Shown here: in pieces, positions 30,246-53,691 of the stretch
Layout of the letters: every line of letters starts with the position of its first letter
Position numbering within the stretch: position 1 is the stretch's first letter
DNA from: Ceratodon purpureus
Taxonomy: Eukaryota > Streptophyta > Bryopsida > Pseudoditrichales > Ditrichaceae
Length of the DNA stretch: 64,000 nucleotides
Reading direction: 5' to 3'
Assembly: GCA_014871385.1 (NCBI GenBank)
Contig: CM026426.1
Coordinates: 107,923,789-107,987,788 of the forward strand
The notes under the pieces: generated by a model
Seen by the model: the letters and a program-made list of their open reading frames with translations, nothing else
Told to the model about the DNA's origin: nothing
Database searches by the model: none
Translations under genes and position numbers: made by a program

Positions 30246-30617
30246 CTAATCCTTCGGAGGATATACAGTCCAACTCTTGTCCATATCAAACCAGCAAGTT
30301 TCTCCATCCGATATGATCACTTCGGGCAGCTGAACAACTGGATTCTCATCGACGTTCGATAGCAAGGGATACGGGATTAGGGACAACCCCATAATACGGA
30401 GAAGCTCATTGGTACAAAGCACTGTCCAACGCCATTCACCTTCACCAACATGGAGGCTTCCGATGTGCCTAAACGGTGGCAGGTCCATGCCTCGTTCTCT
30501 GGCGCGCTCCACCTCCAAGAGCCAGGGCCGCAGCTCCTGATAACACGCCGGTGCCTTTGGGGGCAAACCTACAGCCGCTCTCGTCCTCCTCGATCTCGCA
30601 TTACACACCTTCGGCAT
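30246..30617 (-). CDS. 123-aa ORF near the right end (element 1)
   Basis: Identical in translation to the copy at 39571-39942 in element 2. The true ATG is at 30617 (MPKVCNARSRR); an upstream GTG is not needed. A basic N-terminus is followed by an ordered-looking core with Trp residues (GEGEWRWTVLCTNELLRIMG, ISDGETCWFDMDKSWTVYPP). No known family recognised. It lies about 760 bp from the right tip, convergent with the methyltransferase gene. X has lost this region, so conservation cannot be tested in the oldest copy; identity between elements 1 and 2 may reflect recent gene conversion rather than selection. Confidence 0.5.
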   Translation of the reverse strand: MPKVCNARSRRTRAAVGLPPKAPACYQELRPWLLEVERARERGMDLPPFRHIGSLHVGEGEWRWTVLCTNELLRIMGLSLIPYPLLSNVDENPVVQLPEVIISDGETCWFDMDKSWTVYPPKD

Positions 30618-31267
30618 CGCGCAACACACTAAATTGTTGTAGTCTTAAAACATTCCACGCAAGCTTGCAGATTGACATCCCCAAACTCCTACGCTACCTT
30701 TGCATACAGCACAGAATGCCAAGGACTGTGTCACTATCCTAATACGTCACCTAGAAACAAGCTAAAGAAACCAAGAGTGACCTCCTTCTCTGGAACCTTG
30801 CTTACCAAGTGCTGTTCGTGATGAAAAATCTCCTACTTGTATCACTCAAATGAAGATGCTTCGATGCCTAGGAAGAGAGAGTAATCTTCGATGAAGACAA
30901 GGACTCTAACAAGGTATATCTTGGGTTCAGCAGTTAAGATATTTACACGAATTTTGAAATATTCCAGGAAGTTTTGAAACCTTGCCTCCTTTATGTTCTG
31001 TGAAATTTGTTTCTTTCCTTGTGCATTTACATAAACCTATGAAAGAATTAATTGTTTGATCTAGAACTTAACGCCTGATCATTATATCTTGCCTAAATCC
31101 ATGATTAATCTAACAAAATATATGCATGACGTCATCATGACATCAGCCCTAATTTGTATCTTAGAGAACAAACGTAATAAATTCTTACCAGAGAGAACCC
31201 TGATTTCCATGGTAATATACTCTTTTCCTAAAAGAAGTGTCAAAATCAAGCCTTAATTTAGTAATTT
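30618..31267. other. Right subterminal region of element 1
   Basis: AT-rich, no gene seen; matches the inverted region 38921-39570 of element 2. Confidence 0.6.
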
Positions 31268-31284
31268 TCCACGGTTATAGGGTC
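31268..31284 (-). promoter_or_regulatory. Subterminal motif, element 1 right
   Basis: TCCACGGTTATAGGGTC, the reverse complement of GACCCTATAACCGTGGA, 95 bp from the right tip. Confidence 0.7.
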
Positions 31285-31312
31285 CACTTTGCTTTTGAAA
31301 ATTTTGCTAATT

Positions 31313-31379
31313 GTCAAATCTGTGCTCTCCATTCTGTGCTCTCCGCTCTACGCTCTCCGCTCACATACGAACTTTCCCC
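31313..31379 (-). repeat. Right terminal inverted repeat of element 1
   Basis: Read inward on the minus strand from 31379: GGGGAAAGTTCGTATGTGAG, then GCGGAGAGCGTAGAGCGG and GGAGAGCACAGATTTGAC. Matches the end at 38809-38875 with at least one difference. Confidence 0.85.
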
Positions 31380-31389
31380 CAGGCATGTC
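31380..31389. repeat. Target duplication, right of element 1
   Basis: CAGGCATGTC; partner of 13201-13210. Confidence 0.75.
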
Positions 31390-33893: not shown

Positions 33894-33975
33894 CGTGAAA
33901 CGTAGAGTGTGGGGATATGACACTAAACGAGTGAAGGTGCACAAGAATGAGAGACTGATGAGGTCGAGTACAATG

Positions 33976-33985
33976 ATTATATACA
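33976..33985 (-). promoter_or_regulatory. TATA box, X transposase
   Basis: CTGTATATAATC on the minus strand, about 80-90 bp upstream of ATG 33893, in the divergent promoter region shared with the methyltransferase gene. Confidence 0.5.
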
Positions 33986-34420
33986 GTTATAATTGTATCT
34001 TAGGTAATGAATCTGAATCACGAGTAACGGAAGTTAGTTAGACTGTAAGTAACAGAGTTAGTTGTCCCTGACGCCGTAATGAGAATTTAAGTACACTTAT
34101 ATTAACTCATGTCAGTACCACTTTAGATCGTAGTTTGATTTTTTGTTGAAGACAGCATGTCTAGGATTAGTTGTAGCCGCCTTTCATTTTAGAGTTTTGG
34201 CTAGGCCCTCCGTGATGAGTGACTCATTGTCACCAATTCTATTTTAGTGGCGATTTTATTAAATTTTGATAAATTTTAATTATATTTATTTGCACATCAA
34301 CTTTAATTCAAAATTCATTTATCTTTAGTTGTTCGATGTCAGTGACCAATTTTAGAGGTACATGTCAGTGATCAATATTTTGATAAGAGGAGTTGTTCAG
34401 CAGTAGTTAGGAATGATGAG

Positions 34421-34428
34421 TATATAAG
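34421..34428 (+). promoter_or_regulatory. TATA box, X methyltransferase gene
   Basis: TATATAAG, about 60-70 bp upstream of ATG 34489; matches the box in element 2. Confidence 0.55.
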
Positions 34429-35904
34429 CAGAGCTTAAGTTCTAAAGTGTCCTTTATTGTGAAGAGGGTCATTAGGTTACTTAGACACATGAAGCAGAGT
34501 GGAGGGCCATCTCCCTCCACTTATGTCACTCCTAAACCTAGAAGAAAACCAGGTGGTACAGATTTTACGAATAGGAGAGCTAGGAAGAGGAGAGCATCAC
34601 GTAAGAAGGTAGTATTTAAGAGTGACCACTTGAGTGCACCCGTGAAAAGGAGAGGAGCAGGTCTGCCTGTAGCTTTGAAGTTTTGTAGCATTCGTAAACT
34701 CATTCTGGATTCAATAGTAGAGCGAGAGGAAGATTTTTTAGAGAACTCTCTCGTTGAAGAACACGATCAAGAACAGGTGGTACTCTCAAGTGGAGTTGCA
34801 CGTGAGGCCATGACGGAAGAATTAGTCTTTAATTGTAGTCAAAGAGTGGAGTCACCGCAGCCGTCTATCGAATTCAATGACTCTTTGACGGGGAGACGGA
34901 TTCTCAATCAAATCTACATTTTAACTCCGATGAGGTTAGTTATTCTATACCGTCTTGACGGATGTTGATTGTTTATATTAATTCAGTATTGTATTAGGAA
35001 GATGCTTTACTATTTACGTTATCTATTTTGTGTTACGCATATTTCCAATGGATTGCGTAAACTCACAAAAATCAAATAATTTATTGAGGCACTAATTATT
35101 TGACAAAGGCCCGTAATTGCTTCGGACTGCCTGCGAGGAACTTCAGTTTCGTATTGTTCACGGGAACTTGATGTTAAAGTCAATTACTAGGTTGGCTAGT
35201 AAAAGTCAATGGGCGTCCTTGTATTGACTTCGGCCCGGCCTCTAGATCGCATTGCCATTTGGATAGGTTTCGATATCGACTCATAGAAACCTTATTTGGG
35301 TCGAGTGGACTCTTCTGTGGCACTCAGGGATTTCGCATAGAGGGAGAGGAGGGTGAGGAATTGCGAGGGTGCGCAAGGATGGTTCGAGCCGCAATTATGG
35401 AGGCCGGCAGCGACTCTGATGGTGGGGCGGGCCAAGGCATTGCGCAGGACGATGGGCAGGTGCAGCATGCCGAAGGAGCGGGCTGAGGCATTGCGGAAGA
35501 CGATGGCAGGGTGATGCATGCCGATGGAGCAGGGGGATTTGATGGGCCAGGAGAAGCCACCGACAGGGAGGAGTCTTTAGGAGGTGGGCAAGATATTGTA
35601 CGAAATGGTGGAGACGACGACGACGACGACGAAGAAGTATTCTACTAACTTGACCTTCTTGGTTGTAAGCGGATTTGGGTTGTTTAGAAGGGTTTGATTC
35701 TTACAGATTGCGTCTTTATTGTTTGTGGGTTGTAGTTTGTTCGAGGGTATCGAGTTCTTGGTTGCTTGCGATTATCGGGTTCTTCAGTGCTTGCGATCTG
35801 TTCTCGAATTTTGGAGTGGGCGGATTGTGGGTGTTGCGGATTCTTGCGCTGCTGCTGAATTGCATTGCTTGTAACGAGCTGTGAGTGTTGGTCAATCTGG
35901 GCTG

Positions 35905-36128
35905 GTTTGTTCTCGGTGGCTCGCGGCTTGGGACTGTCCATCTGCAATGAATTCTTGAATGTTTACATATTTTATTTTTAATTTAAAAAAAAAAAAATGG
36001 CCCCAAGCCTACTGTCGTTGACGACAGTAGGCCGAGGGCCTTCAGTTGGTTTTCGGGATTTCTTTGTTGTTTATATGGGCTGGTCTGTTCTCGGTGGCTC
36101 GCGGCTTGGGACTGTCCATCCGCAGTGA
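35905..36128. repeat. Direct repeat pair in X
   Basis: GGCTCGCGGCTTGGGACTGT and neighbours occur near 35905-35950 and again near 36083-36128, 178 bp apart. Confidence 0.6.
36007..36032. repeat. Perfect short palindrome, first copy
   Basis: Arms GCCTACTGTCGT and ACGACAGTAGGC around a 2-bp centre. It is the same core as the 212-bp array downstream, but 638 bp from its first member. Confidence 0.85.
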
Positions 36129-36599
36129 CTGGTCACCCGGGGGAGCCTTCAACTTGTATGGCAAGATCTCGATGAGTTCTAGCATGGGTTCTGTTCCTTG
36201 GTTCTGCTATGGTCGTTATGTCTTTCAGCCATTGGGTTGTTGGTGGGGATGGTGCTTGAGTCTGGTCGGAACTGGCTAGGATTCCAAAGATGAAGTTGTC
36301 GCTGATAACCTCAGTCTGGTAGCATCAGAGACTCACAATTGCAAAACTTCATATGAGTCATAGTTTGAATCGTTATCCAATACTTAAAAGTTCTTTCACT
36401 CTATCAGTTTCCTCGCTCTGTATTGACATGTCAAGTTGTCCAATCTGAGTGCAAGTCACTCTGATCATCTACCGCGCTGCATTGTGAGTGCTAGAAAGTG
36501 TATCAATCATTCACCACATTGATACAACAAGACTTTCGGAAATACAGTAAGACGATTACTTGGAAAGCAATTGCTCACTCACATTTCAGCTGCTTCCAC

Positions 36600-37450
36600 A
36601 GTATAATTTTATGTTATTTTTTTGAAAATTAAAAAAACCGCAACCCTACTGTCGTCAACGACAGTAGGTCGGGGGCTGGGTGTTGGATTTGGGGATTTTG
36701 ATTTTTTTTATTTTTTTTATTTTTTTTGGTTCCATTTTGTGTAATGTCAATGCATGGTTGATAACATTATTTTAATTAAATTGTTAAAACTTTGAAGATT
36801 TTAACGGATTTTCTTGGTAATTTTTTTTTTTTTTTGAAAAATAAAAAACCCGGAAGCCTACTGTCGTCAACGACAGTAGGTCCGGGGCGGGGTGTTGGAT
36901 TTGGGGATTTTGATTTTGTTTTATTTTTTATTTTTTTTGGTTCCATTTTGTGTAATGTCAATGCATGGTTGATAACATAATTTTAATTAAATTGTTAAAA
37001 CTTTGTAGATTTTAACGGATTTTCTTGGTAATTTTTTTTTTTTTTGAAAAATAAAAAAACCCGCAAGCCTACTGTTGTCAACGACAGTAGGTCCGAGGCT
37101 GGTTGTAGAATTTGGGGATTTTGATTTTGTTTTTATTATTTTTTTTCTTTGGTTCCATTTTGTGTAATGTCAATGCATGGTTGATAACATAATTTTAATT
37201 AAATTGTTAAAACTTTGTAGATTTTAACGGATTTTCTTGGTAATTTTTTTTTTTTTTGAAAAATAAAAAAACCCGCAAGCCTACTGTCGTCAACGACAGT
37301 AGGTCCGGGGCTGGTTGTTGAATTTGGGGATTTTGATTTTGTTTTTATTATTTTTTTTCTTTGGTTCCATTTTGTATACTGTTAATGCATGGTTGATAAC
37401 ATAATTTTAATTAAATTGTTAAAACTTTGTAGATTGTAACGGATTTTCTT
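36600..37450. repeat. Tandem array of about 212-bp units with a 24-bp palindrome
   Basis: Palindrome cores at 36645-36668, 36857-36880, 37068-37091 (one mismatch) and 37280-37303; spacing 212, 211 and 212 bp. Each core (arms CCTACTGTCGT) follows a T run, GAAAAATAAAAAA and CCCGCAAG, and precedes GGTCCGGGGC. The rest of the unit includes GTAATGTCAATGCATGG and TTTTAACGGATTTTCTTGG. Found only in X within this window. Confidence 0.85.
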
Positions 37451-37914
37451 GGTAAAAGTCTTGATGAAAATCTTATATGTTTTTAAGAGTTTTTAAGGTT
37501 TTTTTGGGAGCCTTGTCGAGGTTGTGGTTTGTTTCTTTATGATTCCTGTTTTTTCTGATAATTATAACATTGTTTATGGTTAAGGACTCTGATGGAGATC
37601 ATCTCGGGAGCGAACGTCAAGACCCGACGCCTGCAGAAACTGAGGTATTTCATTCAATTTACAATTAATATTGTTTTCTTATGTCTATGAATTTGAGTTC
37701 TATTCGCCTTGTACCCTTCTTTGTTTCCTACTCTTTTAAAAATGGAAGTTAATCCTCACTTCATTTCTTCTACTCTAGGTATCATCCGATGTTCCTGAGA
37801 TGTCCGCTACTTCCCCCATTTCAGTGATCAATGTTTCCGATCTTTCGGATTCATTTGATCATGTCTACTGTACTTGTGATGTAGCCAACCCTGTAGGTGT
37901 GGAAAGTGGACCTC

Positions 37915-38070
37915 TCGAAGTCCACTCTCCACAGTACATGCCTACCTCTCCAGTGTACATGCCTACATCCCCGGTGTATGAGCCTACCTCCCCGGGCTAT
38001 ATGCCCACGTCTCCTCCACAGGGCTCCCCGCCGATGTCTCCACCCTCTCCTTCCTCGCCGATTAGAGTCA
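37915..38070 (+). other. CTD-like heptads, X copy (one extra repeat)
   Basis: SPQYMPTSPVYMPTSPVYEP then TSPGYMPTSP, four YxPTSP units against three in elements 1 and 2, then SPPMSPPSPSSP. Confidence 0.8.
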
Positions 38071-38798
38071 GGAGGCCAGCCCATGTGGTCTTTGCTCTGC
38101 CGGCAATTTTGTAGTGCCCTGTCCAACAGACCAGGCGATTTTGGAGGAGACGCCGTCACTGGAACTGTAGATAGTCTAAGGAGTACTATAGTCGATCCTC
38201 ACGTTGATAGTTTTATCAATCACAGATGATGATTGAGTTGTTTAAAGAGAGATGACAGTATGAAGATATATTGTTACTTTCTTTTACATACTTGTCTTCT
38301 TTGCATGACTTTCTTCGATTGTGCTTGTTCTCCTAATTTGCGCACCTTCTCGCAGGTTTCGCAAACACAAGATGTGTTGGTGAAACCATCTTGTCCAATA
38401 AACTTGAAGACTGTTAGGGAAGGGAAATTGGAACATCGAACCCAATATAAGGTGGACTCTATAGCCGTCATCAACAAGCTCAGGATCAAGCCATCGCAGA
38501 AGTCCCGAATGTTGGTGCCCCTGTGCAGGATGATCCCAATGGCAAAGGTTAGATCTGTGGGCGAAGTGGGGGTACAGCATTTGGAGCGGGAGTTCGTTAA
38601 GGGATATAGAGATGGCGACCGCGTCATGTACATCTCTATGTACAACAACGAAGAGCAGACAAGAGATGTTACGGATGAGGTCATGGCTAGATGGAGCCCA
38701 TTATGGAGGGACGCGAATGATGCTTTTGAATTTGAGCTTCAAAGTGACGAGGAGTGGTCGCAGTTCTCGATGAAGATGTTTTTTGTCTGGGAAGGTAA

Positions 38799-38808
38799 CC
38801 ATCGCCTC
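38799..38808. repeat. Target duplication, left of element 2
   Basis: CCATCGCCTC, identical to 53682-53691, in the GNHRL codons of X's ParB-like exon. Confidence 0.9.
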
Positions 38809-38875
38809 GGGGAAAGTTCGTATGTGAGCGAAGAGCGTAGAGCGGAGAGCACAGAATGGAGAGCACAGATTTGAC
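38809..38875 (+). repeat. Right-type terminal inverted repeat of element 2
   Basis: GGGGAAAGTTCGTATGTGAG then CGAAGAGCGTAGAGCGGAG and GGAGAGCACAGATTTGAC; pairs with the GAGCGGAGAGC-rich end at 53599-53681. Confidence 0.85.
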
Positions 38876-38903
38876 AATTAGCAAAATTTTCAAAAGCAAA
38901 GTG

Positions 38904-38920
38904 GACCCTATAACCGTGGA
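38904..38920 (+). promoter_or_regulatory. Subterminal motif, element 2 right-type end
   Basis: GACCCTATAACCGTGGA, 95 bp from the tip. Confidence 0.7.
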
Positions 38921-39570
38921 AAATTACTAAATTAAGGCTTGATTTTGACACTTCTTTTAGGAAAAGAGTATATTACCATGGAAATCAGGGTTCTCTCTGG
39001 TAAGAATTTATTACGTTTGTTCTCTAAGATACAAATTAGGGCTGATGTCATGATGACGTCATGCATATATTTTGTTAGATTAATCATGGATTTAGGCAAG
39101 ATATAATGATCAGGCGTTAAGTTCTAGATCAAACAATTAATTCTTTCATAGGTTTATGTAAATGCACAAGGAAAGAAACAAATTTCACAGAACATAAAGG
39201 AGGCAAGGTTTCAAAACTTCCTGGAATATTTCAAAATTCGTGTAAATATCTTAACTGCTGAACCCAAGATATACCTTGTTAGAGTCCTTGTCTTCATCGA
39301 AGATTACTCTCTCTTCCTAGGCATCGAAGCATCTTCATTTGAGTGATACAAGTAGGAGATTTTTCATCACGAACAGCACTTGGTAAGCAAGGTTCCAGAG
39401 AAGGAGGTCACTCTTGGTTTCTTTAGCTTGTTTCTAGGTGACGTATTAGGATAGTGACACAGTCCTTGGCATTCTGTGCTGTATGCAAAGGTAGCGTAGG
39501 AGTTTGGGGATGTCAATCTGCAAGCTTGCGTGGAATGTTTTAAGACTACAACAATTTAGTGTGTTGCGCG

Positions 39571-39942
39571 ATGCCGAAGGTGTGTAATGCGAGATCGAGG
39601 AGGACGAGAGCGGCTGTAGGTTTGCCCCCAAAGGCACCGGCGTGTTATCAGGAGCTGCGGCCCTGGCTCTTGGAGGTGGAGCGCGCCAGAGAACGAGGCA
39701 TGGACCTGCCACCGTTTAGGCACATCGGAAGCCTCCATGTTGGTGAAGGTGAATGGCGTTGGACAGTGCTTTGTACCAATGAGCTTCTCCGTATTATGGG
39801 GTTGTCCCTAATCCCGTATCCCTTGCTATCGAACGTCGATGAGAATCCAGTTGTTCAGCTGCCCGAAGTGATCATATCGGATGGCGAAACTTGCTGGTTT
39901 GATATGGACAAGAGTTGGACTGTATATCCTCCGAAGGATTAG
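39571..39942 (+). CDS. 123-aa ORF near the right-type end (element 2)
   Basis: Same translation as 30246-30617 in element 1, starting at MPKVCNARSRR. Basic N-terminus, then a Trp-containing core (GEGEWRWTV, SDGETCWFDMDKSW). No known family; function unknown. It is about 760 bp from the element tip and points inward. Confidence 0.5.
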   Translation: MPKVCNARSRRTRAAVGLPPKAPACYQELRPWLLEVERARERGMDLPPFRHIGSLHVGEGEWRWTVLCTNELLRIMGLSLIPYPLLSNVDENPVVQLPEVIISDGETCWFDMDKSWTVYPPKD

Positions 39943-40456
39943 TACTGTGAAGTCTAGCGGGGTGTTCGAATACATTCCTTTAGATTTGGTCATTTATTGG
40001 ATCTAGATACGAGTATTCCAGCATGATGGTTTTAGATAATATAGAGGATTCTAGGAATAAGAGAACTCGAAACCAACTAAAAGAAATGGTCGTAAAAGTT
40101 CGTGGAATATTTCAGATTTCGTGTACAATAATGGAGTAGCGGAAACCAAGATGCACACCAAGTCAAGAGTAGGTAACATGGCTATGGAAATGTGGGATTT
40201 TGAATGATTAAAATATAAATTACCGCGCAATTTAAATTTTGAGCATTTATTTTGTAACATTTCATTCTTCATATTATATTTTGAGCATTACAGTTGTCAC
40301 ATTTCATCCTCTACATACAAAGAGACGATTTGGAAATGAGAATCATAACAAGTTTAGGTTTAGGGTAGTAGAGTAGACGAAGGATTACGCAATGAACTCC
40401 AATTAAATCAAATCAAATCAAATGAAAACAACAATAGACCGAAGCCTCCTTCAAAC

Positions 40457-43400
40457 TCACAACATGCTACAGTCGCTACTTTCACTCTCAGAACTAGATG
40501 ACTCTGAATCTCCTTCTACCGCCTCATCATCGACGAATAGAAGGGCCCTGGGATCAAAAGTAGTTGGCCGACTAGGAACATATGTAAGGGCTCCACATTG
40601 AAACGCCTGTGCTAAGCCCTCCGCGTAGTCCGGAAGTATGAAAGGCTGAATCAGGCTGGAATGAAGACGCCACGATGGAGTGGACACTGATCTTGGCCCA
40701 CGTGGCGGTGTTGCTGAAACTACTCTGCAATAGAGAACCGATTGTGGTTAGATCGAGTACGTAGAGCTGCAAAGAGAAGTAATGCTTGGATAATTTGAAC
40801 AAAGAATAGAAGACTTACACCACTTATCAGATCTTGCTCTCTTTGGAGGGGCTTTGTCTGCTGCTGCCGGTCTAGGATGTTTAGGAGGGCCCATGGCGGA
40901 TGGTCTAGCCATGCACGGTTTGAGAAGGGCGTTGAATATGGCTTCGTCCTCCTCAAAAGCGAGAATGTGACGACCAATAGCCTGGGAAGCCTTGATGGAG
41001 GCCCCTGGAACTCGGAGAGAAACAAAGAAATGAGAAACTGTGGGAAAAACGAGAGGAATAATTAAGCAGAGATATGCATGAATAGTTACCTGTCCCAGCA
41101 TTCCAATCAAGAACTATGTCGCCGGGCATTGACAGCTCCTCAATTATGCCCTGCATCATCTCAGGGGATTTCTCCCTTGGGCCTCTCCACGGCACCCCCC
41201 CATTCATGAGCTGCGATTCCAGATCGGTGAAGTTGAAAATGGCATCACTCTCGGTAATGTTGAGGAGCCCATGTATCAGCTCGGATTTCTTCGTTGGAAG
41301 GAGAAAGTACTGCCTTTACGAACATAGACGCGAATCCAGAACCGCATAGTCTGCACTCAAGCAAAACTAGTGAGTAAAATTAAGCAGAAGGGTTATCAAT
41401 AAGTAAAGGGAAGGGTATGTTTAGGGAAATTACCAAGTTCTCGGGCTTCGTAGGAGAAGTGAGGCCGAGGACATTGACGCCCCACCAGTCCTTGAAAAGC
41501 ACGTAGTCACCGCCATCAGCTTCTTCCTCGATATCCTTAGCCAGCTTCTGATCAGTGTTGTAGATGAGGCAGATGGCACCATCTTTCTGCAGGTAGTTAT
41601 CTGCAAAACGGAAGATGTCGAACACATAATCCTTCTCGCGAGAGTTCCAAGGCGGAATACTCGTGGGGGGAACGGAAACGGATGGGACGGGAAGATTCTC
41701 AGGGATGTCGGCAATGATCAAGTCCACTCCCAGATGGTCCTCTTGTTTGCACCGGTCTCCAACTCTGTTTTCGCGGCCTGCTCCAAACTTGAGGAAACAA
41801 GAAAGCAGAGTTAGTAACTACATAGCGAGTAGAGGTGGCAGAATCCATTAAATGTCAAAATATCGGAACATACATTGCGAATGAAGTCTTGAGTCTTGAT
41901 CCAATCCGGGTCGCCACCTTTTCTCTCCTGTCTCTTATTTTGCCGTAACATGGAATCCACAGATGAGTTGAAGACGGAAACATGTGTGGAAATCGAAGCT
42001 CCAGCGGAAGAAGTTGTTTGAGGATATAGTTTGGCCTTCCTCTGCTCGAGGAGACCTCTGGTGATCTCCGAAGCACTGATCGAGGAAGGAGCCGGCGAAG
42101 AAGCTGGAGAAGGGTTTGTAACGACAATACCCGGAGAGGGCTCTGGTGCCTTCTCAGCTGGCGCGGAAGACTCCGCACCAGTTTGCTGTGATGCCTCTGA
42201 CTGAGAACGCAGAGATTTCAGTCGCCTTCCTCTCCTTCTCTTCGGTGGTGGAGCAGAAGACTTATCCTGCTCTCCTTCAGGACATTCCGCATCATCCACG
42301 GAGTCCTCCACCACAACCTCACCCCCATCGTGTAGAGTCTTGACGTCCGCCTCTGAGTCAATCGTGAAACCACGAGAGCAATCAAGATACCAGCATCCCT
42401 CGAGCAAGTGAGGAGCTTTGTACCTTTTCAACTGTTGGGGAGAATAGATACACTGGTCCGAGGTGTTCGACGTCCAAGCACTAAAGTACTTAGGGAGCTG
42501 CTGAACCTTGATTGCCTCCTTCAGAAGAAGCTCTCGCTTGAAGTACAAATGTAAACCAATATGTAGAAGGTTAGTATCAAAAAGATAAAGAGACCTCGTT
42601 CTGGAATTTGAATCTGATTAAAAGGAATTTATCGTACCAGTAAGTAACTCGCTTGACAACCTGAGCGGTTCCAGGAAATTTAGCAAAAATGGACTTCTTG
42701 TCGAAGGGCTTATCAGCCGATTTTCCAATGAACGTAGGGAAGGCCTTGTCCCACAAGAGAATACGTGAACTCTCCACATAATCGCCCGGTTCTTGTACTT
42801 CAGGAAAGGCCTTCCAATTGATAACGAGGTTTTCCGCCTTGCATATATCCTCGAATTCGTTAATGACGGCTTCCTCCAACTGTAATTCAGAATTCAATTA
42901 ATTAGCAATGAGAAAGAATCGAGGAAGAGAATAATGGATAATGTAATTGGAAAGGTTTTTTAAGAAATTGTACCCCAGCCCAGAATGAGGCCTTGTTCAA
43001 CCATGGGACAAATTCGGTATCCTTGAATTCAAGTGGTAGAAATCTGTAAGACAATTGGGAACTCAGAGATGAGTTCCACCACCTCAACCAACAAGCCTTG
43101 TACTTGGCCTCGACGAATGCTGGAACAATCTTCTGGAACTTATCAAGTGACATCTCAGGTTTAGAGAAGTCACTGAAATGCCGATTAATATGCAACAAGT
43201 ACAGGAGTTTTAGAAAAAATGAATACGTAAATGTTGTTGTGATACAAAATACTGAACTCTGCCACGATGAGGGTCTCACTTTGTTGAGGAAGTCGTCACC
43301 ATTCTTGGGATTTGCAATTGCCAAGTACTTGGTGAAGTCCTTCCTCTTAATCGATTCCACCATGTTGTTTGAAGCCGCATTCATGGCATCCCAAACAGCA

Positions 43401-46400
43401 GTCGCGGTTTGGTCTTCAATGGGTGTTTTCTCCTTGTAGATTCTGGCAGCTTCGTCAGAAGCAACCACAATTTCTCGCTGGAACACAAAGTAATGTTTGA
43501 GGAACTATATGAAGCAGCGTAAATCAATTGCCAAATGGAAGCGTGAGGGGGGGAGGAATAAGTGCTTACACGATAAAGAAAAGCGATGAATACTTTTGTT
43601 GGCAAGGTAAACCAGGATGGAGTAGCTGGTTTGTGATTCAATGCTAAAGCATACTCCTGTGGTGAAAGCAGATCCTTGACTTCCTCCAATTTCATCACAC
43701 CAAAGGAGCAAATACGATAAAGTTTTGCCGGAATATTACTCTTTACGTGATCATTTTCCGTAGACCTGTACAAATAGACGGAAGTTAATAATAAGCAAAA
43801 AGTACGAGTTGAATCGGCGTTCAAGAGGTGTAGACAAAGTAGAGGGAGTTAATTCTTACCAGTTAATGTCATGCATGGCATGAAGAAGGTTTCCAACATG
43901 ACCGCGTGGGTCAAGAACAATGCAATGCACAGAGATGTGCCACGCTGGATCGTCGTTGTGATGCTTCTTGATATATCTGTACCATGCGGCAAGGCGATGG
44001 TTACCTTCCCAGACATAGAACATCTTCCCAGAGAACTCCTTCCAATCCGGGTCGGCCAAGAGCTCATCTTCAAAAGCATCATTAACTTTTTGCCAACACG
44101 GGCTCCAGTCAGCCTCGATCTCCTCAGTGACATCGGCTGTCTTCTCTTCGTGGTTGTAGATGGAAATGTACATGACACGGTCTCCATCTCTATAGCCTTT
44201 GACAAACTCTCGCTCCAAATGTTGAACTCCCATTTCTCCTACAGGTCGCACTCTTGCCATTGATAGCATTCTGCAAAGGGGAACTTGGATACGCGACTTT
44301 GTCTTTGGAAGTATTCGGAGTTTGTTGATGACGCCTACGGAGTCCTGTTTGTGTTGTACACGATGTCCCAATTCACTCTCCTCTGCATTCGTAAAATTAG
44401 GAGGACAAGATAACGCTGGCAACATATCCTGTGTCTGAGTTACCTGCAAGAAGTACTACATTTTCAAAATTGATTCCAAGATAAGGATCAAAACAAGTAA
44501 TGCAATTATGAAAAAGAATAGAACAATAGCTTCATGTACTGATACCAATCGTCATCAGTAGAAAGGTGTACATAGGCAACTATGTACGTGGAGCACGGCT
44601 ATAATACTCCCTAGCTTGTCTACAATTCCAATGACGGTGCCTCCTCCAAAAACGCCTGGTCTGTTGGACAGGGCATGGTAGTATCGCCGGGAGGGCGAAG
44701 ACAACATGGGCTGGCCTCCTCACTCTAATAGGCGAGGAAGGAGAAGGTGGAGACATCGGCGGGGTACCAAGCCGTGGAGAAGTAGGCATGTAGCCTGGGG
44801 ATGTAGGCTCATAGACAGGAGACGTAGGCATGTACAGAGGGGAGTGGACCTCGAGAGGTCCACTACCTAAACGTACAGGCTTTCCTAAATCACATCTACA
44901 TAAATGGGGCTGATCAAATGAATCCGAGAGGTCGGAAAGATTGATAACTGAGATCGAGGAACTGATGGACAAGGGTGCATCTAAGAATACCTACAAGCAG
45001 TGGAACAAAGACATTGTCAAGTTACCATTTTAGTTTACAAAACTTCTAAAGGACGTTTAATTGACAATGCAAAATTCAATACAAAAAGTAAAATGGATTA
45101 AATTACCTCAGTTTCTACAGGAGTTGGGCCATCGCCTTCAGTCGCAGTGAGTTGATCCGTGAACTCCTACAACACATATGATATACAAATTTTAATAATT
45201 TTAAAGAATACATCATTAAAAAAAGCAAGAGTTCTAATTCAAATACATAATTTCCAAAGAGCTGCCCCCTCCTCATGGGAGGCATTCTGTACAGGATGCC
45301 ACTCCGATTGGGTTCAATCTCTTGCGGGTATGGTGTGGATCCTCGCGGCTTCCTCTTTCCACCCCTTGCCCTCGTACCTCGCGGCCCATTCTATTGCAGG
45401 GTCGGTATCCCCCACATTGCACCTAGCGGCTATGGCCACTGTGAGATCCACCTCCATCCTCCCGGCCCCATGTACTACAGCCTCCAAATCCGCGACCTCG
45501 CACTTCGCTACAGTGGCATTCTGTACAGAATGCCACTCCGATTGGGTCCACTCCCTTTCGGAGTTAATGTGGTTCCCCGCGGCCCCCTCCTTCCACCCCT
45601 TGCCCTCGTACATCGCGGCCCACTCAACGACCGTAGCCGCGTCCCCAACCTTGCAGCTCGCGGCCCCAGGCTCCAAATCCGCGACCTCGCACTTCCCTAC
45701 AGTAGCATTCTGAACAGAATGCCACTCCGATTGGGTCCACTCCCTTTCGGTTGCAATGTGGTTCCCCGCGGCCCCCTCCTTCCACCCCTTGCCCTCGTAC
45801 ATCGCGGCCCCATCCTCTGCAGACCTTGAGTCCAGAGCCTCCCCCCATGCGGCTATGGCCGCTGCGAGTGCCGCATCTCCCACCTTGCAGCTCGCGGCCC
45901 CAGGCTCCGAATCTGTGACCTCGCACTTCGCTACAGTGGCATTCTGTACAGAATGCCACTCCGATTGGGTCCACTCCCTTTCGGTTGCAATGTGGTTCCC
46001 CGCGGCCCCCTCCTTCCACCCCTTGCCCTCGTACATCGCGGCCCCATCCTCTGCAGACCTTGAGTCTAGAGCCTCCCCCCATGCGGCTATGGCCGCTGCG
46101 AGTGCCACATCTCCCACCTTGCAGCTCGCGGCCCACTCTACTGGAGGGTCCGAATCCTCAACCACCCACCTTGCGGCTATGGCCGCTGCGAGATCCGCAT
46201 CACCCACCACGTACCTCGCGGCCCCATCCTCTGCAGGCCTCGAGTCCAGAGCCTCCCCCCATGCGGCTATGGCCGCTGCGAGTGCCGCATCTCCCACCTT
46301 GCAGCTCGCGGCCCACTCTACTGGAGGGTCCGAATCCTCAACCTCGGACTTTGGTACGATGGCTGCAGAGGGAGTTGCAATCCTTTTGTCACGCATAGCT

Positions 46401-47584
46401 TCCCCTCATACTGCAAACTCCAAATCCGCGACCTCACAACCTGCAACAATCACCAAACCCAAATCATCAAATGCCCAAGTCCGATCCCTTACCTCTTCTG
46501 TGGCTGCACCTGGGTCCGTCTCACCACCTGCGCTCTCCATCTCCTGCTCTGCGCGGTCCTCTCCACGCCCATCCATGTTTCGAGCACTTGCCTCCACTTC
46601 CTATGCCGCAGGTTTGAGTTGAGAGATGCCCTCAGCTGACTCCTTCCCTCGACTACCTCGACCTCTCCCTCTCCCTGGACCACCTATCCATCTCCCTCGA
46701 TCCGCAACCTCAAACTCTTCACATTCGTTGTCATTAACGGGCCCCGCCATTCTATGCTGCGATTGGTCTTTGTCTAGAATCCTCTGCAATGGACTTCCGG
46801 GGTCCCCTCGCCCCGCTCGTCTTGCAGCTACTGTTTTCCCACCTTCGCCCGCCTCCATAATTTTGCCTCTCGCTCTCCGAGCAACTTTTATCAATGTCTC
46901 AGGATCTGACTCCTCGCCAGCATCCACTTCTGGCGTCTTTTCTTCCACAATCTCTTGACCATTCCTAAACCAATCGACAATCTGCACAAATATTACTACT
47001 TCTGATCTTTTACTCTGAACAACCACCCGGACTGATGCGGTATCATAAATCTATACAGTTAAACTCGAAGACATAACATAGACATTAATGCAACTCTCAA
47101 AAATACATGATTTACATTTAGCATATTTTAATGTATCGATTATGAGACTTACCACATCCGTGTTAGAATGCTCGCCCGTCTGTGAATCCGTCCCTCTTGT
47201 CGAACACTCCTTAAAACTGAAAGAAGGTTGTGGTGTCTCTATAGTCGGACTGGAATTGAACCCTAATTCTTCCGTCATCTCTATCTGTTTTTCTCCGCTA
47301 CTTTTTACGTCCCGCTCCCGACGCTCAACAATGCACTCCTCTAAAACCTCCTCTACTATAGACTCCAGAATGAGTTTATGAATGCTACAAAATTTCATTG
47401 CCAAAGGCAGCCCAGCTCCTCGAACCTTCAGAGGTGCACCCGACAGGTTGCCTCTACACTTCGCCTTCCTACGTGATTCTCTCCTCTTCCTCGCTCTCCT
47501 ATTCGTAAAATCTGTACCATATGCTTTTCTTCTACGTTTAGGAGTGACATAAGTGGAGGGAGCTGACCCTCCACTCTCCTTCAT
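40457..47584 (-). CDS. ParB-like / beta-class DNA methyltransferase-like gene (element 2)
   Basis: Inferred exons: 47584-47153, 46981-46493, repeat-rich part (46396-45314, status unclear), 45166-45107, from 44990 (CTD-like heptads), 44443-43860 (ParB-like; YVWEGNHRLAAW holds the GNHR motif), 43765-43570, 43477-43280, about 43195-42974, 42879-42638, about 42556-41874, 41787-41434, 41309-41090, 41004-40819 and about 40718-40457. The methyltransferase part has motif IV-like DLIIADIPENLP before motif I VLDWNAGTGASIKA..., followed by GRHILAFEEDEAIF: the permuted order of N4/N6 DNA methyltransferases. ParB-like domains fused to such methylases are known in bacteria and phages. The tail is acidic and Ser-rich. 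Concerns: the acceptors before 43195 (gcat for gcag) and 42556 (attt for ttag) are altered, and motif IV lacks the second Pro and the aromatic residue. Confidence 0.72.
44700..44860 (-). other. CTD-like heptads, element 2
   Basis: SPLYMPTSPVYEPTSPGYMP and TSPRLGTPPMSPPSPSSP on the minus strand within the exon starting at 44990. Confidence 0.8.
45314..46396 (-). repeat. Ala-rich tandem repeats in the large gene, element 2
   Basis: Continuous 360-codon frame made of reiterated blocks such as AASCKVGDAALAAAIAAWGE, ALDSRSAEDGAAMYEGKGWK and EREWTQSEWHSVQNATV. It is related to the array at 20823-21408 in element 1 (EAHSAPNAT corresponds to EWHSVQNAT) but reorganised. It may be translated as a spacer between the N-terminal and heptad exons; in-frame stops at its edges leave this open. 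Confidence 0.7.
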
Positions 47585-48186
47585 GTGTCTAACTAACGAG
47601 AGAACATTCCTCACAATATAGCTCTCCTTCTAACTTCCCAGCATCTTATATATCATACACGTCCAACCCCTCAGACTCTGCCCTAAGAAGTTACCTTATA
47701 TTTAAACTCTTGAAATTCATTAAAACTATAAATAAATGCATTTTGAATTAAAGCTGATGAGATCAATCTATATTGGAAGAGAATAAATCAAGTCCACAAA
47801 ATATTAAAGGATTTGAATTAAGCATTGGAATACTTGTATTAAATTTGGAAGCAACTGACGGCTCACTCTAATCTCACCAAACTTCACATCAAATAGAATC
47901 GGTTCCACGATTCAAATATTAAATGCGTACTTCTAAAAACTCCTACCTAGTAAACCTGGGCCTGCAAAAAGCAACATTCTAATTAGTTAGCGCCGTCTCT
48001 CTTAAATCGTACATTCGTTACCTAACAGAATGAATCATTACCTAGTCGTCCACATGGACATTCCAACTTGAATAAAATGATCAACAATGATGCATCTTTC
48101 CTCTCACTTCGCTCTCGCGATATCGCTTGGCTAGTACACTCATTCCTCTCCCTTCTATCACAACTACTACAAAGTTGCCTGCGAAC
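47585..48186. promoter_or_regulatory. Divergent promoter region, element 2
   Basis: About 600 bp between the start codons of the methyltransferase gene (47584, minus) and the transposase (48187, plus). TATATAAG on the minus strand at 47652-47645 and an AATAAAAT-like box near 48071 on the plus strand. Confidence 0.55.
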
Positions 48187-51100
48187 ATGGAAATGGTCTG
48201 TCTGTACGCCCAGGGCATGGGCATCCTCCTTAGGTTTTGCGTTGATGACGATGGTCTAGCTACAGTTTCTCCTCTTCGCCAGAGTCTCAGATTCCATTTC
48301 CGTGAGGATTCTATTAGTGTAGAGGAGGAGATCTTTGATGACGTTACTGCCGAGGTTACCCACACCCTCGGACAACCTTCAGTGAGAGATGAGAACAATA
48401 TGTTGCAGTAAAGACTCTTCCCTGGATCCTATAGAGTCTATGGTCTTACTGATTCTCTAATGGCTGCATCCACTGAGATCCTCACCCCCCGCCGCTCTTC
48501 TACTTGCACAATTCAGACTCCCTTACCTCGTGATGTCAAGGTCAAAGTCGAGCCTGGAACCGAGACTTCAGATGTAGAGAAAACTCCTCCGACCGTCATA
48601 TCTCTCTCTTCTAATGACATAGTTAGTCTCGTCAAGTTGGTGCCTAAAGTCCACGCTGATGCTCCTCCTTCCAATGTGTCTCCTCCATTGTCCCAGATTT
48701 CAATTAGCATTGTTCCACTCCTTAAAGAGATTGCTAAGACGCGTGGGTCCAAAAACATTTTGAAGAAGATAGACTATTCCACTATTAAACACGAGAGAGT
48801 AGAGTACTTGCCTGCAAAGTTTGATGGTCCGATTCTTTTTGAGTTGCCCCCAGTTGCTGGAGGTTCCTCTAAGCTCGCCGCCAAATCAATGCAGGGAATG
48901 GACAAAAGATACGACGGACACTTGTGGACCAAGACCATCACAACAAACATCAAGAACGACTTCGGACTCTCTTTTCGAAGTTCCACCTGCGTCGGATGGC
49001 TGCGTTGCACAAACGAGGAGTGTGACTTCCTGAAGCGTGTTCCCAAGATCTTCGAGGTTAACGAGACTGAGTTCGAAGGGTGTACTCTGCAAGCTTTTCT
49101 CATGGATCAGCCTCCTCCATCTGACTCCACGCTAGTGTGCAAGGTATGTAAAGAACCTCCATCATGTGTAGCTACATGCGAGGCTAAGATTTATTACGTT
49201 GTGGGCAAAGCGAATCAGACCAGAGCTTGTATTCACATAGGATCACATGAGCGTCCAGTGAAAGTTGGAGACTACAGAGACTCTAAAGCAGAGATTAGTA
49301 GCTTAATAGAAGAGCAGGTAGAGATGAACAACAAAGCAACAAAGAGCGCCGTTGTCCTGGAGGCGAGCAAACTCCTCATCGGGAGCTACCTTCTACAGCC
49401 CAAGGATGCACCACCGAGGAAGCTGACGATGGAGGAGCTGGTTCCTGTTCGGGATCGATGCAAAGACATGGCGTCACCAAACATCCGCAACAAAGTCGCC
49501 ACCTTCAAAAAATTCAAAAGGTACGGAATCATGGACGGTATCACCAAGCTCCCTGGTAACAGTCTCTGGGCGTATGTCCAGGAGAATAGGTTTCCTGGTG
49601 AGGGATCTATGCGTGACAAAGTCTTCCTCTTCAAGATGTCGGAGGTCAGCCCGGGAAGTGGTGTCGACTTGGCCAGCCGAATGCAAGCTGGTGGCGACTT
49701 GGAGAACGCATGGATCATGTTCGACCATGTAAAACGCGTCAAAGACTGGTCGACGATGGCGTGCCATGTGTACGACGCCACCTACTGCCGCGTGATGACA
49801 ATCGCCACTTGCGACATGCAGTCCGAGGACACGGAGGCCCAGCTCGTCTTCTGGAAAAACCTGAACCTGGTCATGGAGATTAATGGCGTTGCAGTGCCGA
49901 ACTTCAATGGGTTCATGACGGATAACGCACAGGCGAATTGGAATGCAGTACGAATCCTTTACGGCAATGGCAACAAAGAGGACCCAATGGAGGACCGGGA
50001 GAGGTCGTGCTTGTTCCACTGGACTCAGAACATGGTGGCGTATACGCAGAAGCACTTCCCCGAAGAACTCTGGGAACAGCACAAGAAGATGTGCACTCAG
50101 TACAAGAATGCGACCAGCATGGCAGAGGCGGAAACTCTGTACCACGCGTTGCGAGCATGGTGGGCATCCACCGGGGTCGTTGGCGAGAGCGGGCTCATCA
50201 AACTCGATCAGTGGCTGTCATTCTGGCACCACCGCTTCCGGCAGTGGGGGGGATTTTTGACCGAGGTATTATTACTGCACTCTGTTTCCATGTTTTTGAT
50301 ATTGGTTTCCTAGCCCTAACCTACAAAACTGTAATCGGTGAATCTCACGGCATGTACTGTCAAATCTGCAGAAATTCACGAAAGAAGAACTCACAAAGAT
50401 GCCCACCTGTAACCTCGCCGAAACAGTTCACAACAAGTGGCTCCAAGCTTCAGGAAACAACGGGAACGACCTGTACGTTGCTACCGTGGACGATTTCGTT
50501 CGGGCTTTTCTACAGGTTGTCAACTTCTACCAGTTCCTCAAAGGTGACGTCGGCGGAACAGGACCGTCCAAGAAGGAACTCAGGCTCCGTATGGCTGAAC
50601 GCAACGCGAAGAAATGGGGAAATCCTACACTGCTCGATAAGCCCATGCTCGATATGTCAGGCGCGGATGAGTTCTGCACCTGTCAGCCTATCATGCCTGG
50701 AGCGGAAGTCTTCGGTTCACAGGAGCGAAAAGCCGACGTCCCCATCGGAGCTGACGAGGAGTCTCATCGCCCGGACAAGACAAACTTCTTACGCCCAAGA
50801 GGCCCAAGACGTGCCGTCAGAGCTCAACCTATGCAGATGCCTGTCATTGTGGAAGACGACTCCGAACACGACCCCGAGGTAGAAGGTACCCAATCTCCTG
50901 CCCAGGAAGTTGATTCCCCTTTACCTTCACCTATGAACAAGGGCGGCATTCGCCATGTCAACGCGGTTGAAGAAACCAAGGTTGACGTGAAGGAGTGGCA
51001 CATCTCGAGACTTCACAAACTTTTTGCGAAGTGCTGCTGGGCCCAAAGAGCTGAAACGAAAAAGAAGTGCACTGAGAGAATTGTCAGGGGGCCCCATTGC

Positions 51101-51865
51101 ACAGCTGCCCCGACCTACACTGGGCTTTGGACTAACTACCGCAGGAACAAAGTTGAGAAGACAGAGTTCTTCTTCTGCTCCGATGATATTGAGCGCTGCG
51201 TCAAAGGCTCTAAGCGGAAGTGGGTAGCACACTACTCAAAGGATCAAGAATTCCCCTCCATTCCAGAGGTGTGGCCACTGAAACTTGGTACTAACCTAAA
51301 ACTCACTGAGATTCTTGCCCTCGAAGCAGCGGGCTTTCAACTTCCGCCGAAGAAGCCGGTCTCCCCAAGACGCCTGTTCTCCTCTGCCCCGCCCCCTGCA
51401 AATCTCAGCTCAGTGCCAGTCCCTTCAGACGCTGACCGCTACCCAGGCAAGAGAGACAGCAAGATGGTGAAGCGCACTGCCACTGGTCCCAATCCGGCGC
51501 AGCGACTATCCATGGGCTCCTCCGAGTCTCTCAAAGCGCGCCTCCGTTCCGTCACCATGATACCTCAGCCAGGCCATGGTTGCATCATTGGGCTGGATTC
51601 GGGCGTCGCTCCACACATCACACGGTACCATATTACCATCAGTTCTTACCCTGGTTGCACTTGCCCAGCATTCAAGAAGACGATGACTACGTTCAAAGGC
51701 AGGACTCAGTTCACGTATTGTAAGCACCTTTACTACATACTCTTGAAGGTCTGCAACCGTGATCCCGAGGCCGAGCTTTTCATCCATGCGCCTACCTTTA
51801 GCTTCAACGAGGTCAAGCTTCTCCTAGAGAGTGGAATCTTGCGTCACCCCTTGGCGAAGAAGTAG
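48187..51865 (+). pseudogene. MULE-type transposase with SWIM finger (element 2, early stop)
   Basis: Exons 48187-50265 and 50372-51865 mirror element 1. TAA at 48409-48411 replaces the TGG present in element 1 (…LQW), so the full-length protein would end after about 74 codons. The frame is open from the next Met (48460) for 617 codons and keeps the whole catalytic core (DATYC, GFMTDNAQ, CLFHWTQ) and the SWIM finger, so an N-terminally shortened product is conceivable. In its SUMO-interacting-like string, SSDDE has become SSNDI. Large parts (about 48880-50680) match element 1 with almost no differences. Confidence 0.8.
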
Positions 51866-52116
51866 GTAGCACTCCTTCTTTAGAACTGCCATTTCCACAT
51901 TGGCCATTGATCATGTAGTGAATGATTTTAGTAATATCGCATGTACTAAGTCAGCAATAGAGAAGCTGTATTGACTTTTTCATTATAAAGGCTTTGTCGT
52001 TCACATTGATTGCATTTTATTTCAAAACATTATATCTTGAACAAGTGCACTATATACCTCGTATCCCCTGACATGTACCCTTTATTACAGCAAACATATA
52101 CTTGTTATTAGATGTC
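51866..52116. other. Intergenic, element 2
   Basis: Between the convergent transposase and small acidic genes. TTTATT at 52081-52086 is the minus-strand AATAAA of the small gene. Confidence 0.6.
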
Positions 52117-52569
52117 CTAATCTTCGAACCTTACACGTACAGGGTTGCCCACTACACTATGAGCAGGACTGCCAGCCACTGACTGTACTACATGACAAAC
52201 TACAGTCGCGTTCACTTTCGGTCCCACACTTGGCAAGTGTCCTTCGTATGAACGTTTCAGCAATGGCCCACCTCCCCGCCTCCGATTCACTGATTCCCTG
52301 GAATAGGTTCCCCTTGGGATCTTTCCAACCTTGGAGTATGCATGAGGTTGCAAAGCCACATCTGCGTCCTCCTCCAGCACTCTGATATCATCCGAATTTT
52401 CTGAACGTGGAGGGTCAGGTCTTACATCCGATTGTACGTCAACATCCGTTGTCAAAGGACGCCCTTGGCTGTTGGCCATCACCTCTTCTTGGTCCTCCAC
52501 CTCAGCATATGGTTGAAATGGACAATCATCGTCAGCAAGTGAAACAACAATATCTCTGACGTCTTCCAT
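52117..52569 (-). CDS. Small acidic transposon protein (element 2)
   Basis: 150 aa, colinear with 14190-14642. It keeps CPFQPY, KVGKIPRGTYSRE and GGPLLKRSY. The SUMO-interacting-like string is weakened (DIRVLEEDAD). Minus-strand AATAAA at 52086-52081 and an ATATTTAAG-type box upstream (about 52650). The open frame in all three copies supports a real protein. Function unknown. Confidence 0.75.
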   Translation of the reverse strand: MEDVRDIVVSLADDDCPFQPYAEVEDQEEVMANSQGRPLTTDVDVQSDVRPDPPRSENSDDIRVLEEDADVALQPHAYSKVGKIPRGTYSRESVNRRRGGGPLLKRSYEGHLPSVGPKVNATVVCHVVQSVAGSPAHSVVGNPVRVRFED

Positions 52570-52759
52570 AACCGCTCTCCCGCACTACAGAAAAGAGCTT
52601 CACAAAACACCAACACAAAAGAGGAAGAGACATTCCATAATCTTGTCTTAAATATCCGTGAAGAAGATGCTTGGCGCCCTTGAAAATCGGCTTTTCATTC
52701 ATTCAGAAGTTGTCATCCTCCTAAACTGAATAGAAAAGGATGAGGGTTTAGCAGAAGTC

Positions 52760-53470
52760 ATTTAGCATTTTTTTTTAAAATTAAAAAAAAAAACTAAAAA
52801 TTTTAATTGTAAAAGGAAAAAAAAAAAACATTTATAAAAAATGATATCAAAAACATATAAGTAAAGATGAGCAAAAATAAATATTAAGTTTGAAAATAAT
52901 AGGAAGGAAATTAAGAAAATGAAGGAAAAAATAAAATGGAAGAAAAAATAAAAAAATTTAAATTGTAAAAGGAAAAAAAAAAAACATTTATAAAAAATGA
53001 AATTAAGAAAATATAAGTAAAGATAAGCAAAAATAAATATTAAGGTTGAAAATAATAGGAAGGAGATTAAGAAAATGAAGGAAAAAATAAAATGGAAGAA
53101 AAAATTAAATGAAAGGACTCTTTTGACCCCTTCAACAAGATAGATAGAATAAAGGAAGTTAATAAAAAAAACAAGACAATTCTAATAAATATAAGAAATA
53201 AGAAAGTTGAAAGGCATGTAGACCATAGCGGATGATTCCTAGCAATGTTAAGAAAATGTTACGATATTAAATGTTACTTGAACCCTCTTAAGAAGTTCAA
53301 TACCAACACATTTTAGGTAGTAATTTGCATATAAATGTGAGGAGATAAGGGGAATTAATGTATGCCCGAACTAGTTAGAAGGAGCTAGAGCATAGTAATT
53401 GGTGCACGTTAAAAATTTAATCACCAAGAACAGAGAAAATGAACTACAAATTCAATGAAAATACTGTAAT
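52760..53470. repeat. A-rich left subterminal region of element 2 with a 156-bp duplication
   Basis: AATTGTAAAAGG occurs at 52805 and again at 52961, followed in both places by an A run, ACATTTATAAAAAATGA and further shared sequence, so about 156 bp are duplicated in tandem. Element 1 has a single version. No gene seen. Confidence 0.7.
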
Positions 53471-53473
53471 TAG

Positions 53474-53490
53474 TCCACGGTTATAGGGTC
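53474..53490 (-). promoter_or_regulatory. Subterminal motif, element 2 left-type end
   Basis: TCCACGGTTATAGGGTC, 191 bp from the tip, the same distance as in element 1. Confidence 0.7.
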
Positions 53491-53598
53491 AATTAAATTA
53501 CTAAAATTAGTAACCTTCCAAAAATATACAGAGAATATTCAAATCTTCTAATTTTATAGTTTAATTTTAATATAAAAATTGCTATTTTAAGGTTTTGT

Positions 53599-53681
53599 CC
53601 CCCATTCTGTGCTCTCCGCTCTCCAAATCTGCGCTCACCGCTCTCCGCTCTGCGCTCTCCGCTCACGTACAAGCTACGTCC
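53599..53681 (-). repeat. Left-type terminal inverted repeat of element 2
   Basis: Read inward from 53681: GGGACGTAGCTTGTACGTGA, then GCGGAGAGCGCAGAGCGGAG and GCGGTGAGCGCAGATTTGGA. It corresponds to 13211-13293. Confidence 0.85.
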
Positions 53682-53691
53682 CCATCGCCTC
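53682..53691. repeat. Target duplication, right of element 2
   Basis: CCATCGCCTC, identical to 38799-38808. Confidence 0.9.

Follow-up and report, generated by a model that had tools for sequence, protein, structure and literature searches.

A DNA transposon family of the moss Ceratodon purpureus carries a conserved accessory gene with an altered N6/N4 methyltransferase-like domain

Introduction

DNA transposons adopt epigenetic enzymes, including TET/JBP proteins in fungi and SET proteins in oomycete MuDR and Harbinger elements (PMC12730594). Carriage of methyltransferases has also been described, with a Dam-like adenine methyltransferase in DIRS elements, DNA methyltransferases (DNMTs) in LINE and DIRS elements, and a DNMT in marine-virus DNA transposons (PMC5890265). 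The VANC protein, by the accounts in PMC5735166 and PMC10398659, is sequence specific, binds short motifs within tandem repeats in the noncoding DNA of the element, and causes silent marks to be lost. Here, we analyze a 64,000-nucleotide stretch of the Ceratodon purpureus genome (the window; positions 107923789-107987788 of contig CM026426.1, assembly GCA_014871385.1), in which self-comparison revealed one transposon family present as three related, nested copies, designated A, B, and C. Opposite in strand to a transposase-like gene, the family carries an accessory frame whose predicted product has an N-terminal part with a ParB-like motif and a C-terminal methyltransferase-like domain.

With the VANDAL/MuDR elements that carry VANC, the moss family shares the anatomy of a Mutator-like element (MULE) plus an extra gene, the combination of conserved domains with fast-changing tandem peptide arrays, and motif arrays within noncoding parts of the element (PMC5735166, PMC10398659). 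It differs in its methyltransferase fold, as these accounts mention none for VANC and the word "methyltransferase" occurs 0 times in the text of PMC5735166 available to us; the likeness is one of description. The fungal TET/JBP and oomycete SET elements also have an epigenetic enzyme or regulator aboard, but their enzyme folds, hosts, and transposase lineages are different (PMC12730594). Likewise, the DIRS, LINE, and viral elements have a DNA methyltransferase domain aboard, but these elements are retroelements or viral and their enzymes are Dam-like or C5 (PMC5890265). Finally, phage and bacterial beta-class methylases (DpnA-like enzymes, CcrM, and the ParB-methyltransferase of phage WO) share with the moss domain the motif order IV-X-I-II and 208 alignable columns; they differ at motif IV, which is DPPY in 12 of 12 phage or viral-contig methyltransferases compared and DIPE or a variant in the moss family. 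Among the best-ranked papers of a literature search, represented mostly by titles and the beginnings of abstracts, we found no case of a beta-order N6/N4 methyltransferase-like domain in a DNA transposon of a plant.

Results

A nine-exon frame is conserved among genome copies

We searched a genome of 362,488,568 bases in 151 contigs, fetched 20 copies (the next best of 39 scored matches besides the window), and aligned them with A, B, and C; genome copies are given below as L numbers. First-look counts of 799 and 3246 genome candidates are not element counts. Nine exons, from VTQTQ... to ...DKW, join as a single frame, which in copy A occupies the following positions, with one further open stretch at its 3' end:

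43860..44443, minus strand: first exon of the frame (ParB-like exon), with VWEGNHRLAAW; Ka/Ks 0.05-0.30
43570..43765, minus strand: exon P2, conserved
43280..43477, minus strand: exon P3, conserved
42974..43153, minus strand: exon P4, conserved
42638..42879, minus strand: exon P5, conserved
41874..42546, minus strand: exon P6, with a terminal Ser/Pro-rich linker and a basic KRGRGRR-type stretch
41434..41787, minus strand: exon M4, methyltransferase motif IV region, DLIIADIPENLP
41090..41350, minus strand: exon M1, methyltransferase motif X and motif I (VLDWNAGTG), with a 1-base frame break in A
40819..41004, minus strand: exon M2, GRHILAFEEDE, then a basic Pro-rich tail
40457..40747, minus strand: further open stretch, putative part of the gene, with the acidic end SESSSSESESSDCSML

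The frame encodes 953 residues in most copies (e.g., L013 and L015), 958 in L009 and L016, and 937 in L022, which is without part of the first exon. It is stop-free in 14 of the 20 fetched copies, and the remaining six carry 1 to 13 stops. At the internal junctions of the nine exons, a donor GT and an acceptor AG were present in 20/20 fetched copies, and the acceptor preceding the ParB-like exon was AG in 18 of 19 scored copies. Copy A has no AG acceptor at exon P6, where all 20 fetched copies have one. In both A and B, a single base breaks the frame of the motif-I exon, and in B the exons P4 and P5 contain stops. No window copy is intact, and uninterrupted frames were found elsewhere in the genome, on the 110-Mb contig and several smaller contigs. 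From 324 exon matches, we also chose among the best ones listed eight divergent copies to span 82 to 61% identity. The exon series from the ParB-like to the methyltransferase part was kept in seven of these eight (in L030 from residue 45), with L032 consisting of the 3' half; L035 is stop-free, as is L032 in its kept part.

These results bear upon a preliminary description of the window, made from its letters, which had proposed one multi-exon gene with ParB-like and methyltransferase blocks in all three copies. EGNHRL (within VWEGNHRL) is indeed found in each copy, at 43859-44455 (minus strand) in A, 22148-22825 (plus strand) in B, and 38233-38871 (plus strand) in C, as is IADIPE, at 41383-41817, 24855-25184, and 55840-56076, respectively. 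Motif I (DWNAGTG) and HILAFEEDE, ascribed to all three copies, were found in A and B only.

Selection has maintained the protein

Ratios of nonsynonymous to synonymous substitution rates (Ka/Ks) were obtained for each exon by a Nei-Gojobori count for 13 pairs of copies, with Ks near or past saturation in many pairs. Ka/Ks was 0.05-0.30 for the ParB-like exon (11 of 13 pairs, those with defined Ks) and 0.23-0.60 for M4 and M1 in every pair except L015/L009; P3 reached 0.79 in L015/L025. Based upon this pattern over the pairs, selection has long preserved the protein, also between subfamilies that share as little as about 61% identity, and has constrained its methyltransferase part less strongly. 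Within one pair, Ks varied by exon (L015/L035: 1.8 in the ParB-like exon versus 0.35 in P4), and such differences among exons of the same pair suggest that modules have been exchanged between subfamilies.

Chance open frames were rejected as an explanation, given the 14 of 20 open copies, the conserved GT/AG introns, and the purifying selection. The same evidence bears on the idea that the accessory gene is a Pack-MULE-type passenger, a gene fragment without function for the element. MULEs are described as acquiring host gene fragments (PMC6446971), but a full-length frame open in 14/20 copies, conserved introns, and low Ka/Ks over deep subfamily splits make a passenger most improbable, and we rejected it on Ka/Ks.

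Profile searches assign the C-terminal third to the N6/N4 methyltransferases

The permuted N6/N4-type methyltransferase core of the preliminary description is borne out by several comparisons. First, the spliced domain matched Pfam N6_N4_Mtase (PF01555) with an E-value of 1.2e-7 and 32.4 bits (cut-off 26.7); the motif-I exon unspliced gave E 0.0019 only, below the cut-off. Second, the domain matched PHROG 6952 (E 2.8e-9) and the PADLOC type II methyltransferase model (2e-7), and its profile found a DpnA-like chain (3.8e-4) and a CcrM chain (6.8e-3) in the PDB (entries 5hek, 5hfj, and 6pbd). Third, hhalign comparison of seven moss sequences with the 12 phage or viral-contig methylases gave a probability of 98.0% over 208 columns, extending from motif IV to past motif II, and 50 column-shuffled control profiles reached a maximum of 19.2%. 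A scan of viral contigs with the methyltransferase profile found no relative. The motif order in the moss domain, compared with CcrM over profile positions 20-229, is IV, X, I, II, which we take to be the beta order. By these comparisons, the C-terminal third is a beta-order N6/N4 amino-methyltransferase fold.

Motif I, compared with the pattern [DE]xxxGxG, reads DWNAGTG or nearly so. Its first residue is acidic in 17 of the 18 M1 rows reaching there (D in 16, E in L035), with N in L009; the L031 row stops short of it. S-adenosylmethionine (AdoMet) should therefore still be bound, motif I being kept. Motif IV, read in 20 M4 exons, is DIPE in 16, HIPE in L029, DIPK in L030, NIPE in L031, and DVPE in L035. 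The catalytic box [DNS]PP[YFW] occurs in none of these 20 exons, with PP and the aromatic residue both missing throughout. The motif IV box acts at the target base, and because this motif is altered, classical amino-methylation by the DIPE domain is unlikely.

An active N6-adenine or N4-cytosine methyltransferase might instead mark the element DNA for recognition by the transposase or for blocking of silencing. AdoMet motif I, motif X, and the motif order are kept, the fold is conserved down to about 61% identity, and some retrotransposons encode adenine or cytosine methyltransferases (PMC5890265). We nonetheless consider an active enzyme unlikely, as motif IV departs from DPPY, NPPY, and SPPY in 20/20 M4 exons.

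The conserved N-terminal part has one ParB-like motif

The sequence YVWEGNHRLAAW followed by WHISVHCIVLD resembles the central ParB/Srx box, a GxxR box is present after a hydrophobic stretch, and IIVGNHRFKAA occurs in a ParB-like phage protein (Grekaycon). The pattern G[NHECDQ]xRxxA, which was chosen post hoc, occurred in 1894 of 200000 shuffles. Searches for ParB gave zero matches in Pfam, PHROGs, NCBIfam, and the PDB (the last tried with one sequence and a nine-row profile). PF02195 had no match in the whole moss genome, and the control search was positive in 11 of 14 known genomes. No ParB relative was found in phages, plasmids, or viral and prokaryote contigs, where the contig patterns were narrow and distant relatives would escape; of five weak plasmid matches (E 0.5 to 7), two were examined and judged to be chance. 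Alignment by hhalign of the ParB-like part with 11 phage ParB sequences gave a probability of 0.6%, its unfiltered hidden Markov model (HMM) scores were matched by 20-50% of 5000 shuffles, and two AlphaFold2 models of it had mean predicted local distance difference test (pLDDT) values of 37.4 and 41.1, too low for use.

With one GNHR motif and profile tests at chance level, ParB homology by sequence was rejected. The ParB-like block of the preliminary description thus shrinks to a short motif, family and profile searches being negative, and the HMM family comparison that it had suggested yielded the N6_N4_Mtase match and no ParB match. We use "ParB" as a label, homology being unproven; as judged from the alignments, the N-terminal domain is strongly conserved and contains a single ParB-like motif, GNHR.

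Descent from a bacterial or phage ParB-methylase fusion captured by the transposon must be weighed against these results. In the phage WO methylase, a ParB_N match that narrowly misses the cut-off (E 1.6e-5) accompanies N6_N4_Mtase, and the moss methyltransferase is alignable with the phage WO group across 208 columns. However, ParB_N lies at residues 7-88 and the methyltransferase at 189-378 in the phage WO protein, compared with GNHR at residue 147 and DIPE at residue 718 in moss. Together with the hhalign value and the shuffle scores of the ParB-like part, this spacing makes such a descent very doubtful.

Upstream exons may belong to an alternative product

Additional exons and open frames lie on the minus strand upstream of the ParB-like exon in copy A:

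44580..44990, minus strand: CTD-like exon, with heptads YMPTSPVYEPTSPGYMPTSP like those of the RNA polymerase II C-terminal domain (CTD); conserved terminal stop
45107..45166, minus strand: small exon (EFTDQL...), phase 0 end, which could join the CTD-like or the ParB-like exon
45281..46405, minus strand: hypervariable tandem array of peptide repeats in an open frame, with periods of 234 and 90
47151..47584, minus strand: probable 5' exon of the minus-strand unit, MKESGG...

CTD-like exons were seen at 44580-44990 (minus strand), 21691-22098 (plus strand), and 37779-38111 (plus strand) in the window and also in L029, L031, and L033-L036; overall, 13 of 15 copies examined have one, with no match in L030 or L032. 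These exons carry 3-5 heptads in tandem, mostly of the form Y[ME]PTSPx; A has three of them and L035 has five. The exon matched Pfam RNA_pol_Rpb1_R with an E-value of 0.0019, below the cut-off, and Ka/Ks values of 0.12-0.37 in nine pairs point to purifying selection. In 13/13 CTD-like exons, the frame stops within about six codons of SRAPR. No conserved donor GT was found at the exon end, with L029, L033, and L036 lacking any there. The multi-exon gene of the preliminary description stands for the nine exons in one frame, but the single chain from 47584 to 40457 is doubtful, because the CTD-like exon ends in a conserved stop, before the ParB-like exon, without a conserved donor. The CTD-like and ParB-like exons each begin in phase 0; two alternative 3' ends that share a 5' region, or two separate genes, would be the simplest reading.

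Array periods are 234 and 90 in A; 45, 90, and 117 in B; 54, 171 (15 copies), and 117 in L025; and 60 to 435 in L013. Every period reported within the peptide arrays is divisible by three. The in-frame arrays (45281-46405 and 20530-21387 in the window; L013 and L025) vary in unit and copy number between element copies whose downstream sequence shares about 93-97% identity with that of A. In copy C, an array of four units, each of about 212 bp, lies at 36604-37455, 5' of the CTD-like exon.

These features would be joined in a more elaborate scheme, in which the element runs an epigenetic system of its own: the GNHR domain would read repeat arrays, a repurposed or active methyltransferase would label or shield the DNA, and an alternatively spliced CTD-heptad form would recruit transcription factors to the same sites. 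We regard this full scheme as improbable.

The gene resides in a putative Mutator-like element

The element copies and the ends of A are placed in the window as follows:

38809..53682: copy A, 14,874 bp, inserted within the older copy C, with a 9-bp target duplication on both sides
13217..31387, plus strand: copy B, with the ParB-like/methyltransferase gene on the plus strand; an insert near 25160-28673 splits the methyltransferase exon
31388..38808, plus strand: copy C, middle part; old, interrupted by B and A
about 10785-13216 and 53683-56076: copy C, other parts; old, broken
38800..38808: left target-site duplication of A, CATCGCCTC, within the GNHR codons of copy C
53683..53691: right target-site duplication of A, CATCGCCTC
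38809..38873: putative left terminal inverted repeat of A, GGGGAAAGTT, then GAGCG-type repeats
53611..53682: putative right terminal inverted repeat of A, containing a 7-bp GAGCGGA-type array
48412..51865, plus strand: transposase-like gene, with a DDE pattern and a SWIM-like CxC...CxH seen by eye; family assigned from anatomy only

The coding sequence of copy C reads VWEGNHRLGESS at the insertion point because A inserted inside the GNHR codons of C's own gene. The 9-mer CATCGCCTC has a third occurrence in the window, at 7983. Copy A begins with GGGGAAAGTTCGTATGTGAGCG, and its opposite end, read inward, begins with GGGACGTAGCTTGTACGTGAGCGG. The termini share a GGG start and GAGCG repeats, with a local score of 52, a value that the best of 200 internal controls also attained, and the terminal sequence of A was present in 15 of the 20 fetched copies; two were without it and three end before reaching there. 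Identity between A and B reaches 99.85% over 2.7 kb (A 38800-41514 versus B 28674-31387) and 98% between A 41508-42413 and B 24259-25164, compared with 80-94% in other regions, and the copies are therefore mosaics, in agreement with the varying exon-wise Ks of the genome copies. The 3.5-kb insert in B (window positions about 25160-28673) has an ATG-started open frame of 622 residues that ends at 27616.

The transposase-like gene has a single intron, taken as about 50266-50371, the first among six candidate joins. Neither the joined 1114-residue protein nor its DDE part had a Pfam match, including to MULE or DDE transposase profiles; SWIM scored 12.6 bits (E 0.11), below the Pfam cut-off of 19.6, in a transposase fragment only. 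A KDZ transposase was considered as an alternative and dropped, the joined protein being without any Pfam match. The 9-bp target duplication of A falls within the 8-11 bp described for MULEs (PMC6446971). Based upon this duplication and the antisense second gene, that is, upon anatomy only, the element appears to be Mutator-like, though its transposase profile was not matched.

Copy A has 12 GAGCGnA sites, eight of them within its two terminal 120-bp stretches, and the whole window has 40. Tandem 7-bp GAGCGGA-type arrays at element ends (13228-13281 and 53611-53664) are candidate protein-binding sites. Such terminal sites would also suit a transposition co-factor, with a role like that of mudrB in integration or end synapsis and with the methyltransferase fold as a protein or DNA scaffold. 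Several MULE groups have a second gene, in some cases antisense, and integration reportedly requires mudrB (PMC6446971). We consider this role rather unlikely, as a large methyltransferase fold is unnecessary for it; the likeness to mudrB would be one of role.

Discussion

We show the structure of the accessory gene by conservation, the fold class of its C-terminal part by profile, the selection acting on the gene, and its location in a mobile element. That a methyltransferase fold is conserved with a changed catalytic motif suggests that the element manages its own DNA or host silencing through the fold. The protein is most likely a transposon-encoded accessory factor, for anti-silencing or transposition, that may work in a VANC-like manner.

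As the best explanation of the whole, we tentatively favor a nuclear pseudo-methyltransferase that would recognize element DNA and protect it from silencing or aid transposition. The accessory protein would act in the nucleus as a sequence-recognition factor and would bind the element's own DNA, perhaps at the terminal GAGCGnA arrays. Its methyltransferase fold would bind AdoMet and transfer no methyl group, and binding of the protein would shield the element from silencing or aid transposition, in the manner of VANC in the VANDAL elements of Arabidopsis. We give the highest single weight to a pseudo-methyltransferase whose binding would counter silencing or protect the element, as a possibility that falls somewhat short of even; an active DNA methylase and a co-factor for transposition are its rivals.

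Several points weigh against this preferred explanation. First, we infer the inactivity of the DIPE box. Second, in the close pair L015/L009, Ka/Ks was 0.93 for M4, 1.59 for M1, and 1.06 for P3, and M2 reached 0.93 in L029/L035; constraint appears uneven, and the methyltransferase part may be relaxed in some copies. Third, in six of the eight divergent copies (L029, L030, L031, L033, L034, and L036), one or more exons are interrupted by in-frame stops. Fourth, the hypervariable array lies 5' of the CTD-like exon, and its joining to the methyltransferase protein is putative. Finally, the GAGCGnA array might be no more than a site for the transposase.

Transposon-borne epigenetic tools are already known in the form of VANC, TET/JBP, SET, and DNMT proteins. 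An inactive domain in the moss family would be a conserved pseudo-methyltransferase in transposon biology, for which METTL14-type partners are a comparable case. An active domain would be a direct source of N6-methyladenine (6mA) or N4-methylcytosine in a plant, and the disputed question of plant 6mA would become testable at defined loci. The uninterrupted copies in the genome make the system accessible.

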